Under the pieces are notes generated by a model that was not told the origin of the DNA, made no database searches, and saw nothing but the letters and a program-made list of their open reading frames with translations. A stretch of 21,040 nucleotides of DNA, from positions 1-21,040 of IMG/VR virus record IMGVR_UViG_3300010885_005884. The stretch is one strand, 5' to 3'. Both the position numbers and the translations under genes were made by a program. Shown piece after piece: positions 4,056-16,722 of the stretch (position 1 is the first letter of the stretch; every line of letters begins with the position of its first letter). The DNA comes from a virus.

Positions 4056-4279
4056 TTACGCAACCGGTTATAATCGGATTGCGTGACTGGGCCGATCAGA
4101 TCGTGATGGATATGTCAATTTATGGAGCACTCTCAAGGCTAGACAATGAGGACAAGTGGCAAGAATGGGCCCTACAGTTTTGCGTTATCTCAGGACTAAG
4201 CCAAAAAAATGTTCCCGATCCATTTGACTTCCCTGACTGGCGTAGTTGGGCCCAACGATTTGTACAGATGGTGGACTAA
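4052..4279 (+). CDS. Small Trp-rich protein of unknown function in the tail module
   Basis: A 75-residue protein starting at a GTG that overlaps the nozzle stop by 4 nt (GTGA), so translation is probably coupled. A run of G residues at 4041-4045 can serve as a ribosome binding site. It is acidic to neutral with five Trp residues and short helical stretches such as GLRDWADQIVMDM and WRSWAQRFVQMVD. No enzyme motif or membrane segment is seen. I do not recognise the family. Its place between the nozzle and the internal virion proteins suggests a minor structural, chaperone or assembly role (inference). Confidence 0.7.
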   Translation: MITQPVIIGLRDWADQIVMDMSIYGALSRLDNEDKWQEWALQFCVISGLSQKNVPDPFDFPDWRSWAQRFVQMVD

Positions 4280-4386
4280 TGACCGATCAAGGATTTATCG
4301 AGCTGCTGAATGCCGTAGCCAAAAAGCCCGGCCATTTAACAACAAACCAAAGTGTGCTTTATAGCGTAATCCTAGTAAGGAAATAG
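4279..4386 (+). CDS. Possible 35-residue small protein, translationally coupled
   Basis: An ATG overlaps the TAA of the preceding gene by one base (TAATG at 4277-4281). It opens a frame of 35 codons (starts MTDQGFIELLNAVAKKPGHL, ends SVILVRK) and stops at TAG 4384-4386, just before the next gene. It fills what would otherwise be the largest gap in this module, and the AAGGA used by the next gene (4377-4381) lies in its last codons. The tight TAATG junction is the same arrangement used at 2407-2411. The protein shows a short amphipathic helix and nothing diagnostic. It could also be plain leader sequence. Confidence 0.45.
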   Translation: MTDQGFIELLNAVAKKPGHLTTNQSVLYSVILVRK

Positions 4387-11203: not shown

Positions 11204-14200
11204 ATGCCCTATGACGAACAAGGTAACTTCTACGGATCTAATGAAGATCTTGGCGACCTAGAGGCAAAGTACGTAAGACCGGATTACTCCTCACAGATCC
11301 CAGGCCAGGTTTCTATCTCTAAGTCCGAAGCACCTAAGAGCCTGCGTGAGAAGGCTGTTTCTGCTCTTACCCAAGCAAATCCTCTAATGGTGGGAAGATC
11401 ACTTGTAGACACGACTAAGTCATTTATCGGCTCATCGGTTCTTCCTATTGTGGCCCCTATCAGCGCGGGCGTCCAAGCCTTAAACGCAGCTCCTGGAAAC
11501 ATTTACCGTCGCAGTCTTGGCGAAGAAGAAGTTACGACGCCAACAGCAGAAGAGCTGATGCAAAAATATGGCCAGGCTCTTGCTCCTAAAACAGAAATGG
11601 GCAAAGGCTTTATTGGGGGCGTTAGCAAGCTTATGGACATCCTTAAGGTGCCTGCTGCTTTTCCAATGGTTCCTAATGCTCCTAGACGAGCAATGTTGAC
11701 GCCTACAGACGTGCGCGTAGGAGCGGGTCAAGTCAAGCAACTAGCCAAGGAACTTCGCGAGACTCCTGCAGACTTCCAAGCTGCGCAATCAGGTCTGAAG
11801 CGTCAGAACTTGTATGGTGAAGACACCCTTGGTGTCAAGGCTCAGGCTGCCGCCGACGCTCTTGGCGATACCCTTGAGCGCCGCAAATCAACGGGTCAGT
11901 CTTTGGTGCCTGGTTTGCCAGAGGCCTTGACTCCTGAGACCAAGCTCTACGCCGTCCGTCCAAAGGGTTCTCGCATTGTTCAGGCTCAGGTGCCGGCTAC
12001 GGCCAAGGGCTTTAGGACTGACAACGATGCGATTAGCAACTTAGTTGAAGACATTTACGGCGACGTTCCTACCGCGGACATGCCTGCTGCAATGGTGTCT
12101 GAGGAGTACCTTCGCCGGTTTCTTCAAAATAATCCACCTTTGCGAGAGGCAGTCATTGCTGCGGAACGTCAAAAAGCTGTCGAGATGTTTCCAGACGCGC
12201 CAACTGAACCCTCTGCTCAACGAGCCTACGGCGTTTTGTACTCAGACCCGTCTAAACGGCAGGTGGCGCAATTAGGTGTGATTGAGGATCTCCTGAATAG
12301 TCCTGAGGGGGCGGCCTTTCGCGAACAAGGGGTTATTGGTCCAAAAGAGTTTATGGCTCGTATGGCAGAGGCTGAACGGGTTCTTAAAGGACCTTTTTCA
12401 AACTATATCAACAAGACTGTGGGGGCTGAAGGAAGTCCTACAGTCAAGCTTGCTCGTCAGGGTATTACCTATGAGCGCCCTGAAGACATTGGCCAGTTAG
12501 CCCAGTTTGCAAATCCCACTGAGCTGGCTGATCGACGCCTAGCCTCTGGCTTCCCTGCTATGGGCAGCTTTTATGAGGAACGTTTGGCTAAGACGGGAGA
12601 ACTTGATCGCTTAAATGAAGAGATCAAAGTCCTTGAAGATGCTCGCGCGCCCTTGTTTAATCGTGCCCATGAAGAAGGCATTGACCCGGCTTCAATTCCT
12701 GAATATGCCGAGGCAACAAACCCTTTACGTCAAAAGCTGCGTCAGCGCGAACAAGTGCTAGGTGAGCTTGAAAACATCAAGCTTGGCACCGCTATGGAAA
12801 ACGTGGAAGACTCTATCGTCAGGCCAATGACCAAGAAGAGCATGCTGAAGAGCCTGCCCTACGAGCAACAACAATTCTTTCCAAGTGTGACTAAGGCCGC
12901 TGAGGATGAAAAACTATTTCGTATAGATAGAGACAGTTTGCTTAAAGACGTGGGCTATAAAAAACTTGGAGCTGCATTACTAGAAGACATTCTTACAGGC
13001 AAGGCTGGTGACACCTCTAAGCTGACCATTGAGAACTACATGCGGGAAAAAGGCTTGTCACGGATAGAAGCTGAAAAAGCAGCCAAGGTGCAAGAGCAAA
13101 AATATCGTCAGACCCTTCAAACCATTTTGCTTGATCGCTTACGTAACGACCAAAGTGTGAAGACTTTTGGCAATGCCTCTATTATTACTCTTGACCAAAA
13201 TACGCCAAGAGACGTAGCTATACGAGACATGAGTGCGGACACAACTGTCTTAGACCACTGCGTTGGCCAATGCGGAACTGCACCCCAAGGCCGTAAGAAC
13301 ATCTTGACAGGCAAGCAACAGTACTACGAGCCCCTTGTTGATCCCATCACCGGGGAACGTTCAGGCCGGGGCAAGGATGAAACCTCTTACGTAAGAGACT
13401 TGGAGCGGGGCCATGAGCTGGTCAGCGTTCGCGACTCTAATACTGGTTTGCCAGCTGCCACAATTCAATTTATTCCTACTAGCGGAGGCAGCCAATTAAG
13501 AGACGGCACATTTGACATTGGATATGCTTCAGGCGCTAAGAACGAAGCCGTTGATCCAGCCTATACAAATGCAATTCGCGACTACCTGAATCAGAGATCC
13601 AGCTCAATTAGAAGCGCTGGTGATAGATTGGCTGACCACACTGGAGTGTTTGATGCAACCAACCCTGGTGACTGGCGGCGAGTGACAAAAGAAGCCGGTC
13701 TTACAAAGGATCAAGCAGCGGCTTTTGATTTTGAATCCGGGGAAGGCCTTCCACGGTTTGTGACTGTTGATGACGTCAAAGCTGCCACCAAAGATGTCAG
13801 GGAAGCATCTCGGGCCCTTGCCACGCAAGATCAAGGCCCGGTTGCAACGCTTACAGCTAGGGATCACGCCCGGATGCTGGATGACTTTAATGCTGCGTGG
13901 AGTAACGCCGTTGAAGGGGCTCGTGAAAACTCAGCTAGCAATCCAAATCGAGTTGAAGGGGCCATGAACAGGGCTGTCAATACCATCTTCCAGCAGCATT
14001 TGGAGGATCCGGTCGCCTTTACCCAAGAGGGCATTACCAGACTTCGCCGGGCCGAACGGGACATGGAAAACATAATTGCAAGCTCGTACGCCCAGAATCG
14101 CGAAGTGGACACAGAGCTTGCCAATGGGCTTTCAGACCTTTTGGTTGATGTTCGTGGTATCCGTTCAAGCATTGAGCGTAGGCTGTCGGCAGCTGAAAAC

Positions 14201-15418
14201 AACCGCGCGCAGCCTGAAGAAAATTTGCCTGTAGGTGATTGGGAACCGGATGAAACGCATGCAGCTAATAACCCGGATCTGCTACAAGCCGCTGATCGTC
14301 TTGCTTTAGCGTTAAGGTACGAAATCCCTCCTGTCACAGCAGAAGAGATCCTAGCGCGCCGTTACGTCCCGATGGAAGATCTATTAGACTTGCGCACGCG
14401 CGCGCGTGAAGGACGCGCAGGCACAATCTTTGAGACTTTGCCAGATGAAAGCCGGTTAGGTGCATATCGCATGGTCAATGACATAATTGACGAGCGAACA
14501 GTTGGAGAAAACTACAATCTCTTGCGCAACTCTATGCTCACCGATACGCAACTCGGCCTGTTAGACCCGGAGCTTATTGATCTAAATATGGTTGTTGAAT
14601 CCATTCGAGATCAACAGTCCGCAAATTCACCCCTAATCAACGTAGGCAACGCCGAGCGGCAAATGCTGGCAGACTACGTCCAACGGCACGGTTGGGAACC
14701 TGAATTTAATCTGCCCGGGGGCCTATTGGGAAGACAGCCGGCCCGGCAGTTGCCCGCCCCTGTTGCCCCTGCTCAACAACCTTTGCAACTTGCCCAGCGG
14801 GCCCCTGTTCCTCGTGAAATTCGAGATATGACAAGGGTGGACTTGATAGCTAACATGGAGCCACGCGGAATTCGTCAAGCTGAAGAATTGGCAACTACGT
14901 ACTTTGACGACAACGTCATTGACGACAACAACACGACCATCAGCGCCCTAACCAACATGATCAGGAATTACAATGTTGGCCCGCACGCCGGGGCTAACTT
15001 TGATGTGCGTGAATTGACCGCCCGCAATCTTGAAGAGATGATCGGGACTGTGGTGCATGATGCGACGCAGATTGCTGAGACTCTGCGAGACACGTTTTAC
15101 AACGATGCAGACTCCCAAGAAGACGCAATGCGGCTAATTTCCCGAGACATTGCCGATCTCGACCAACGCGGGGACCTTATATGGGAAGACTTGATTGGCC
15201 CAATGGCAGAAGACATTCCTTGGAGCCGAAACATTCAGTCCAGGTTGCTTGATAATCTTCGAATCATAGCTGATCAGATCCGCGAGCAAGATAATTTTGC
15301 AAAAGGTGGTTTGGTCAAGAAGAAACGCAAGGCCAACAAGGCCAGAACGTCCTCGGTTGTCACCAGAAGGCACCCAGAGCTTGCCGAAATGCAATATCGG
15401 TATGGTGGCATGGTCTGA
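11204..15418 (+). CDS. 1404-residue internal virion protein with PcfJ-like segment
   Basis: The largest gene in the window and the last structural gene. The N-terminus has a short hydrophobic segment (about residues 68-95, Ile/Val/Ala-rich), followed by long helical regions. Residues about 684-796 contain DHCVGQCG, then VSVRDSNTGLPAATIQF, then GAKNEAVDPAY. This series of HCVG, 'SxRD..G.P..TI' and 'G.KN' is how PcfJ-like domains of plasmids and phages look. The rest of the C-terminal half is helical with charged repeats and a Pro/Gln linker around 1180-1210. The C-terminus has FAKGGLV (1365-1371), a basic stretch and a terminal YRYGGMV, the same Gly-Gly motif type as in the preceding virion proteins. 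Start: a GGAATAAGCC stretch precedes the ATG. Probably delivered with the DNA; function unknown. Confidence 0.72.
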   Translation: MPYDEQGNFYGSNEDLGDLEAKYVRPDYSSQIPGQVSISKSEAPKSLREKAVSALTQANPLMVGRSLVDTTKSFIGSSVLPIVAPISAGVQALNAAPGNIYRRSLGEEEVTTPTAEELMQKYGQALAPKTEMGKGFIGGVSKLMDILKVPAAFPMVPNAPRRAMLTPTDVRVGAGQVKQLAKELRETPADFQAAQSGLKRQNLYGEDTLGVKAQAAADALGDTLERRKSTGQSLVPGLPEALTPETKLYAVRPKGSRIVQAQVPATAKGFRTDNDAISNLVEDIYGDVPTADMPAAMVSEEYLRRFLQNNPPLREAVIAAERQKAVEMFPDAPTEPSAQRAYGVLYSDPSKRQVAQLGVIEDLLNSPEGAAFREQGVIGPKEFMARMAEAERVLKGPFSNYINKTVGAEGSPTVKLARQGITYERPEDIGQLAQFANPTELADRRLASGFPAMGSFYEERLAKTGELDRLNEEIKVLEDARAPLFNRAHEEGIDPASIPEYAEATNPLRQKLRQREQVLGELENIKLGTAMENVEDSIVRPMTKKSMLKSLPYEQQQFFPSVTKAAEDEKLFRIDRDSLLKDVGYKKLGAALLEDILTGKAGDTSKLTIENYMREKGLSRIEAEKAAKVQEQKYRQTLQTILLDRLRNDQSVKTFGNASIITLDQNTPRDVAIRDMSADTTVLDHCVGQCGTAPQGRKNILTGKQQYYEPLVDPITGERSGRGKDETSYVRDLERGHELVSVRDSNTGLPAATIQFIPTSGGSQLRDGTFDIGYASGAKNEAVDPAYTNAIRDYLNQRSSSIRSAGDRLADHTGVFDATNPGDWRRVTKEAGLTKDQAAAFDFESGEGLPRFVTVDDVKAATKDVREASRALATQDQGPVATLTARDHARMLDDFNAAWSNAVEGARENSASNPNRVEGAMNRAVNTIFQQHLEDPVAFTQEGITRLRRAERDMENIIASSYAQNREVDTELANGLSDLLVDVRGIRSSIERRLSAAENNRAQPEENLPVGDWEPDETHAANNPDLLQAADRLALALRYEIPPVTAEEILARRYVPMEDLLDLRTRAREGRAGTIFETLPDESRLGAYRMVNDIIDERTVGENYNLLRNSMLTDTQLGLLDPELIDLNMVVESIRDQQSANSPLINVGNAERQMLADYVQRHGWEPEFNLPGGLLGRQPARQLPAPVAPAQQPLQLAQRAPVPREIRDMTRVDLIANMEPRGIRQAEELATTYFDDNVIDDNNTTISALTNMIRNYNVGPHAGANFDVRELTARNLEEMIGTVVHDATQIAETLRDTFYNDADSQEDAMRLISRDIADLDQRGDLIWEDLIGPMAEDIPWSRNIQSRLLDNLRIIADQIREQDNFAKGGLVKKKRKANKARTSSVVTRRHPELAEMQYRYGGMV

Positions 15419-15435
15419 GGCTCCTTGTTCCCCTA

Positions 15436-15603
15436 TCAAAAACGCTATAGAGGATATTTTTAGACTATACAAAGAGGATCAATACTCTCTGTTTTGGTCT
15501 TGCGCGATTTAGAGAGAAGACGAACGAACGAGTTAAAAACAATTAGTTAAATGAATTGATTCACTCTGTATTGGCTCTAAAAAGTACTCTATAGCTTTTT
15601 TGA
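15436..15603. repeat. Long imperfect inverted repeat, arms of about 50 nt, loop about 67 nt
   Basis: The left arm is 15436-15485 and the right arm 15553-15603. Starting from the outside, TCAAAAACGCTATAGAG (15436-15452) matches the reverse complement of 15587-15603 at 16 of 17 bases. Further pairs run inward: 15455-15456 with 15585-15586, 15457-15464 with 15576-15583, 15467-15471 with 15567-15571, 15473-15474 with 15564-15565, 15476-15483 with 15555-15562 (one G-T), and 15485 with 15553. That is 42 pairable positions with small bulges and one 2x4 internal loop. This is far beyond chance. The mismatches are not compensated, so it looks like two inverted copies of one element as much as a selected RNA stem. 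Confidence 0.88.
15485..15516. repeat. Short inverted repeat inside the loop of the long inverted repeat
   Basis: CTCTCT at 15485-15490 is the exact reverse complement of AGAGAG at 15511-15516, with 20 nt between. It lies at the inner edge of the large inverted repeat, so a folded single strand could carry a second small stem. Six base pairs alone can occur by chance. Confidence 0.35.
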
Positions 15604-15672
15604 AAACATAGCTAGTAAAAGTCCCAGCTCAAAATAATTTGAAAAAACTGCGTAGCACGTGGTTTTACGCGC

Positions 15673-15708
15673 TAGAATCAATCCCATGCACAGCAATCTC
15701 GCTTGCAT
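15673..15708 (+). promoter_or_regulatory. Candidate -10 box and 5' leader hairpin of the replication operon
   Basis: TAGAAT at 15673-15678 matches the bacterial -10 consensus at five of six positions, but no good -35 is found 16-18 nt upstream. If used, transcription would start near 15685. From 15686 to 15708 the sequence ATGCA-c-AGC ... GCT-TGCAT forms an 8-bp stem with one bulged C and a 6-nt loop. The hairpin would then sit at the very 5' end of the transcript, ahead of a purine-rich ribosome binding region (15716-15730). Confidence 0.35.
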
Positions 15709-15735
15709 AAACAGAAAGAAGAAAGAGAGAATATC

Positions 15736-16722
15736 ATGGCTCACGAAGTTGAAACGATGGCTTACGCTAATGAGACCCCTTGGCATGGCCTTGGCACCCC
15801 CGTCGCAGACAACCTGACCCCCGCCCAGATGCTTGACGTAGCTGGCCTTGACTGGAAAGTTCAGAAGAAGGCCTTAGTCGTCGACGAACTTGACCACGTG
15901 CTAAACAGCCACTACGCTTTGGTGCGCGACACAGACAGCAAGATCCTTGGCATCTGCGGCAACGAATACCAGCCCACGCAAAACAGCGACGTCTTTGAGT
16001 TCTTTGACAAGTTTTGCAAAGCCGGCGACATGAAGATGGAGACTGCCGGCTCTCTTTGCGGTGGCAAGCGCGTTTGGGGCCTTGCTAAGATTAACGGCGG
16101 CTTTATGCTGGGCGGCAAAGACGAAGTGCAAGGCTACATCTTGCTTGACAATCCGCACATCTGGGGCCGTAGCTTGCAGATTTTGTTTACGCCAATCCGC
16201 GTAGTTTGCAACAACACGTTGACAGCGGCTCTTCAGAACAATACAAACAAAGACAACACATTCCGCATGTCTCACGATCGCGCGTTTGACGACGAGATTA
16301 AGCAGACTGCCGCCGAAAAGGTTGGCCTTGCAATGAAATCGCTTGACATGTTTAAGCAGCAAGCAGAGTTCTTGTCTACAAAACGCGCCAAGGACCAGCA
16401 AGTCATGGAGTTCTTTTCCAAGCTCATCAATCCGGACCAGTATCAAGCAGCCTTGGCTGCTTCAGAAGATGGTTCCGTCAGCCGTTCAGATCTTGGCCGT
16501 ACAGTCAACCGCCTGATCGACATCGTGCAAACCCAACCAGGTGCTGATCTGAAGACGTCAGCAGGTACTTGGTGGGGAGCATTCAACGCCGTGACGTACT
16601 ACTACGACCACGTCGCTGGAACTGACCAAGACAAGCGTCTGACAAGCGCGTGGTTTGGCTCAGCAGCAACTCGCAAGCGCCACGCACTTGACTTAGCCGT
16701 CGAGTTTGCCGAAGCAGCATAA
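15736..16722 (+). CDS. DUF932 family phage/plasmid-type protein
   Basis: A 328-residue protein with the clear hallmarks of DUF932 (phage/plasmid-like protein, TIGR03299 type): start MAHEVETMAYANETPWHGLG, the LVRDTDSKILG and YQPTQNSDVFEFF segments, GGKRVWGLAKI, and the IRVVCNNTL motif near residue 155. The family's biochemical function is unknown to me; members are common next to replication and recombination genes in phages and plasmids. An in-frame ATG 33 nt upstream exists, but the ATG at 15736 gives the usual family N-terminus and follows the purine-rich GAAAGAGAGA (15721-15730). It is the first gene after the control region, so it is probably the first expressed gene of this operon. Confidence 0.9.
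   Translation: MAHEVETMAYANETPWHGLGTPVADNLTPAQMLDVAGLDWKVQKKALVVDELDHVLNSHYALVRDTDSKILGICGNEYQPTQNSDVFEFFDKFCKAGDMKMETAGSLCGGKRVWGLAKINGGFMLGGKDEVQGYILLDNPHIWGRSLQILFTPIRVVCNNTLTAALQNNTNKDNTFRMSHDRAFDDEIKQTAAEKVGLAMKSLDMFKQQAEFLSTKRAKDQQVMEFFSKLINPDQYQAALAASEDGSVSRSDLGRTVNRLIDIVQTQPGADLKTSAGTWWGAFNAVTYYYDHVAGTDQDKRLTSAWFGSAATRKRHALDLAVEFAEAA

Follow-up and report, generated by a model that had tools for sequence, protein, structure and literature searches.

An inverted-repeat element between two operons

The window, by which we mean the whole 21,040-nucleotide stretch of viral DNA analysed here, carries an element that starts 17 nt past the stop codon of the last structural-operon gene and ends approximately 130 nt ahead of the DUF932 gene, the first of the replication operon (Table 1). 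Two inverted arms form its ends. The outer arm pair (15436-15460 with 15579-15603, 25 nt) is 84% complementary and the inner pair (15457-15483 with 15555-15581, 27 nt) is 74% complementary. An earlier note on this DNA had described two arms of about 50 nt, and we likewise find that approximately 41-42 of about 50 positions pair and that 16 of the 17 outermost positions are complementary. The ungapped inverted-repeat score of the element is 17, the best in the window, where it is at most 11 elsewhere. In the shuffling control that the note had proposed, none of 300 dinucleotide shuffles of 15400-15735 reached 17 (mean 9.4, maximum 16). The fold z-scores of the element were -5.9 as RNA and -5.0 as DNA, with no equally good fold among 200 shuffles.

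Table 1. Features at the element, in its neighbourhood and in related genomes (window positions unless a genome is named).
Feature	Position	Strand	Basis or remark
Virion-type protein of 1404 aa, last gene of the structural operon	11204..15418	+	
Whole element, copy 1	15436..15603	+	nhmmer 141.6 bits; sole copy in the window
Left arm, read outward on the - strand: ATTGATCCTCTTTGTATAGTCTAAAAATATCCTCTATAGCGTTTTTGA	15436..15483	-	arm pairing; arm profile
Third, partial inner half-site GATCAATACTCTCTGTTTTGG, set back to back against the left arm	15472..15498	+	arm profile 15.6 bits; direct repeat D2
Central motif GCG...CGAACGAACGA, kept in nearly all copies	15502..15531	+	invariant columns in alignments A1 and A2
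AT-rich tract from central motif to right arm; possible unwinding region	15532..15556		mean 79% AT, all copies
Right arm, read outward: ATTGATTCACTCTGTATTGGCTCTAAAAAGTACTCTATAGCTTTTTTGA	15555..15603	+	arm pairing; arm profile
Palindromic operator-like motif AGCTAGTAAAAGTCCCAGCT, in a separate promoter module outside the element	15610..15629		alignment of relatives; module recurrence
TAGAAT, probable -10 box of the replication-operon promoter, facing away from the element	15673..15678	+	conserved TA(G/T)AAT; recurs in second module
DUF932 protein, first gene of the replication operon	15736..16722	+	Pfam PF06067, E 1.6e-45
Second promoter-module sites (oriented)	G003 52264; G005 33359; G007 27895; G008 11455		
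Sister-lineage array copies	4166-4363 and 24108-24305		reverse complement of G014 (L273+L272)
CTAATA cores, first sister array	4198, 4238, 4250, 4260, 4270		reverse complement of G014
CTAATA cores, second sister array	24140, 24148, 24180, 24192, 24202, 24212		reverse complement of G014

Read outward, each arm approximates to GTATTGATAC-ACTCTGTTATGG-CTnAAAA-N6-CTATAG-SNNTTTTG. The arms flank a conserved GCG...CGARCGAACGA centre, with the ACGAACGAACGA run at 15520-15531, which is followed by a tract of approximately 20-25 nt that averages 79% AT within an element that is AT-rich overall. The third inner half-site, packed back to back against the left arm, is seen in many copies. The motifs repeated in both copies of the element (see below) are the arms and this half-site, in inverted rather than direct order, and direct repeats arrayed at helical spacing are absent from the element. 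Searches for tRNA or tmRNA genes returned none, and similar DNA sought in annotated phages gave chance matches only.

Conservation and a second copy

A scan with the DUF932 protein returned 79 loci. The earlier note had raised the possibility that related phages might lack both arms at this junction; instead, the element is present in all 22 relatives with a DUF932 protein at least 82% identical, at the same junction and in the same orientation. At loci where that protein is at most 51% identical the element is absent from the junction. Looking for copies before other operons, as the note had also suggested, revealed exactly one more in each near-complete genome, before the terminase operon. 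The element profile finds exactly two copies of approximately 168 bp per near-complete related genome and only trace matches beyond them, and a single-arm profile built from 122 arms finds four arms per near-complete genome, all within the two elements.

Copy 1 heads the replication operon. Copy 2, which lies beyond the limits of our 21-kb fragment, heads the terminase/structural operon 16-21 kb from copy 1, where it lies just ahead of a 108-aa gene and the gene for the large terminase. Among the loci collected by a terminase scan 53 carry copy 2, and in 11 of these its orientation is reversed; a comparison of the arms did not separate inversion of the entire element from inversion of the centre alone between unmoved arms. 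The distance from copy 2 to the downstream promoter differs by tens of bases among loci. The element is absent from the stretches read of the Caulobacter RW group, the nearest cultured terminase relatives (57%), and from those of the environmental phage MW202545.

RNA stem or protein-binding sites

The strong single-sequence fold (z -5.9) favours a structured RNA that would end the late transcript or act in antitermination, packaging or regulation, as does a modest rise in covariation score (0.150 compared with 0.123 in shuffles). However, the alignments give no consensus stem past the invariant core. RNAalifold retained 11 invariant-core pairs in alignment A1, corresponding to the CAAAA/CTATAG core, and zero consensus pairs in alignment A2. 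When the window's own fold was imposed on the relatives, 76.7% of cells paired compared with 74.9% in shuffles. Mismatch classes were close to chance, with 47 G.U against 46 expected and 45 A.C against 43 expected. Since G.U is no commoner than A.C there is no compensation of the RNA type, which points to the arms as probable protein-binding sites in inverted order. The modest co-variation would also fit two sites that track one binder. Further points against an RNA are that an Rfam search gave no match, that some genomes carry copy 2 in reverse and that the probable promoters face away from the element. The terminator proposed in the earlier note gains nothing from a scan of the + strand of the element, which finds no G+C-rich hairpin with a T run. 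RNA structure was rejected on the alignment folding and the mismatch classes, and we regard any of these RNA roles as highly improbable. The element behaves like a cluster of protein-binding sites. The note had itself favoured two inverted copies of a binding element over an RNA stem, a preference with which the alignment folding, the mismatch classes and the reversal of copy 2 agree.

Alternatively, the arms could be a pair of divergent promoters read by a single-subunit RNA polymerase of the phage, as they end outward in CTATAG, or CACTATAGGG in some relatives, a core shared with T7-type promoters. CTATAG is nearly invariant at both outer ends, and ACTATAGG(G) occurs in L006, L012 and L013. 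T7-type promoters, however, have a conserved GGG start after TATA, whereas the bases past TATAG vary in the element (GCG, GCT, GGA), and there are only four sites per genome. The earlier note had listed RNA-polymerase binding sites among its candidates, but we found no polymerase gene in support: no examined ORF matches a polymerase, and 13 related records gave no PF00940 match, which is weak evidence as the control genomes were silent too. We consider this promoter pair quite improbable.

Promoter module and neighbouring genes

A promoter module of approximately 110-125 bp, consisting of the palindrome GCTRGTANNNGTCCYAGC and then TAGAAT, occurs twice per genome. One module lies at 15610-15690 of the window, before the DUF932 operon, and the second approximately 14 kb downstream, before another gene, where there is no element. 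At copy 2 the situation is the opposite, with the element present and the module absent. As the module occurs without the element and the element without the module, the element is not simply part of the promoter. We also observed palindromes such as GCTGGTACCTGTACTAGC beside copy 2 in L136, L137 and L160, which resemble the operator motif of copy 1.

The phage encodes a DNA polymerase A, an AEP-type primase and helicases of the UvrD and SNF2 types. In one relative the primase (L081:9184-10707:-) is encoded in the replication module, close to the helicases and DNA polymerase A, and matches the AEP domain found in TOTE conflict systems (PF22548). A protein in another (L088:10797-11432:+) matches a phage family annotated 'ferredoxin' (phrog_3704) and is conserved in the sister lineage described below as well.

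A shared binder and the MSRP protein

Similarity between copies was compared in the ten genomes that carry both. It is higher within a genome than between genomes (0.674 compared with 0.631, permutation p=0.0003), and the same comparison of the arms alone gave p=0.001. This likeness suggests a shared binding factor. It could arise from co-adaptation to such a factor or from gene conversion, but would not result from independent descent after an old duplication.

Beside copy 2, at a distance of 53-906 bp, all 49 of 49 loci encode an orphan protein of 146 aa that we call MSRP, after its first residues. Its gene lies to the left of copy 2 in L120-L180 (for example L122:2665-3105:-) and is transcribed divergently from it. 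MSRP has several predicted helices, a predicted helical N-terminal part and two CxxC pairs (CxxC...CxxC). The structure model is confident (pLDDT 87), and a comparison with the PDB returned no significant match. Pfam contained no family for the protein, and searches of phage records and bacterial genomes gave no match. Loci with a forward and a reversed copy 2 differ in MSRP subtype, which may simply reflect lineage. MSRP is the best candidate for the binder of the element; that it binds DNA is guessed from linkage and helix pattern, and is only a guess because there is no detectable family or fold match.

The main rival to an origin is an operator or enhancer. On this view the arms would bind a regulator of phage transcription through which the replication and structural operons are coordinated; MSRP could be that regulator, acting on its own gene beside copy 2. 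In favour, each copy is placed immediately upstream of an operon promoter, MSRP diverges from copy 2, and the within-genome similarity of the copies suits any shared binder. Yet the 168-bp composite, in which the arms keep a fixed spacing around a conserved centre and an AT tract, exceeds an operator pair, its distance to the promoter is variable and its orientation reversible, and the second early promoter module has no element. We therefore regard an operator as possible but rather doubtful. Some other cis site, such as a pac or packaging signal, a partition or recombination site or a switch of replication mode, is improbable. A role as replication-mode switch site has been proposed for oriR of phage SPP1. 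Copy 2 is indeed upstream of the terminase genes, but copy 1 is 16-21 kb from both copy 2 and terminase, and the subset of proteins scanned included none recognisable as a recombinase, a protelomerase or a partition protein.

A sister lineage with an iteron-like array

A sister lineage with a terminase approximately 73% identical lacks the element. At the same two junctions it carries a two-copy array of GCTAATA/ACTAATA repeats, spaced 8-12 bp within clusters, and the two array copies of one 40-kb contig are 73.6% identical over approximately 200 bp. The sequence TTATCCACA at the replication-operon copy is kept in three further contigs and absent from two more distant ones. A perfect DnaA box lies beside the replication copy in one subgroup only (L274-L276 and G014). 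The array looks like an iteron-type origin occupying the place of the inverted-repeat element. In the sister genome MSRP was sought and not found, and the place of the 1404-aa gene is taken by a weakly similar protein of approximately 1349 aa. L271, a more distant terminase relative (55%), has no comparable array upstream.

Discussion

The element is most likely a replication origin built of DNA-binding sites and present twice per genome, once heading each half of the genome of this uncultured phage, a reading to which we give roughly even weight on the comparative sequence evidence. An origin fits best because of the composite sites, the AT tract, the two copies, their reversibility, the variable distance to the promoter, the iteron-like replacement in the sister lineage and the replication genes. 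Of the roles put forward in the earlier note, the replication origin remains as the leading function, acting through protein binding and not through an extruded cruciform. We hypothesise that the inverted arms and the third half-site, and possibly also the CGARCGAACGA centre, would be occupied by a DNA-binding protein of the phage. The bound protein would help to open the AT-rich tract, on which the primase, helicases and DNA polymerase A of the phage could then load. We infer this sequence of protein binding, strand opening and initiation at the element. Against an origin, a search from -300 to +500 bp of the element start found no DnaA box (TTWTNCACA) in the 22 copies checked. GC skew, both overall and at four-fold sites, changes only mildly between the genome halves, with no sharp flip at copy 1, a pattern that speaks neither for nor against an origin.

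The arrangement can be compared with known systems. In phage P4, replication requires two separate cis elements, ori and crr, with initiator sites in both, and the elements described here are likewise two and separate. Those of P4 are based on iterons or direct repeats and are bound by the alpha primase-helicase. In the Bacillus phage SPP1, oriL and oriR lie approximately 13 kb apart, contain repeats and an AT-rich DUE, and are both bound by gp38 (PMC6316719). As in SPP1, we find two related cis elements on a circularised genome, many kilobases apart (16-21 kb here, 13 kb in SPP1), and each contains recurring motifs and a segment rich in AT. In contrast, the repeats of SPP1 are direct, whereas the element has inverted arms. 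The protein that binds the SPP1 origins is known, and SPP1 uses a helicase loader together with a helicase of the DnaB type; here there is only a candidate for the binder, and the polymerase, primase and helicases are different ones. The arrays of the sister lineage resemble iteron origins, such as the O sites of phage lambda and those of iteron plasmids, with a DnaA box at one junction in some members; the element of our window has neither an iteron array nor a DnaA box. For lambda ori, titration of an infection has been shown (PMC4488673).

It is possible, and we suggest this tentatively, that MSRP and the paired elements constitute an undescribed initiation system, with a new initiator family and its own origin architecture, and that in the sister lineage an iteron-type system has taken the place of this whole unit at the same two genome positions.

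For most uncultured phages the replication origins are unknown, and here we have a defined two-copy element together with a tightly linked candidate binder. The sister lineage provides a natural contrast, in that precisely these two junctions hold another array of binding sites there. Should the elements be origins, initiator/origin pairs would be replaced as units within a genome plan that preserves two of them in constant positions, and the question of why some phages retain two origins would become directly testable.
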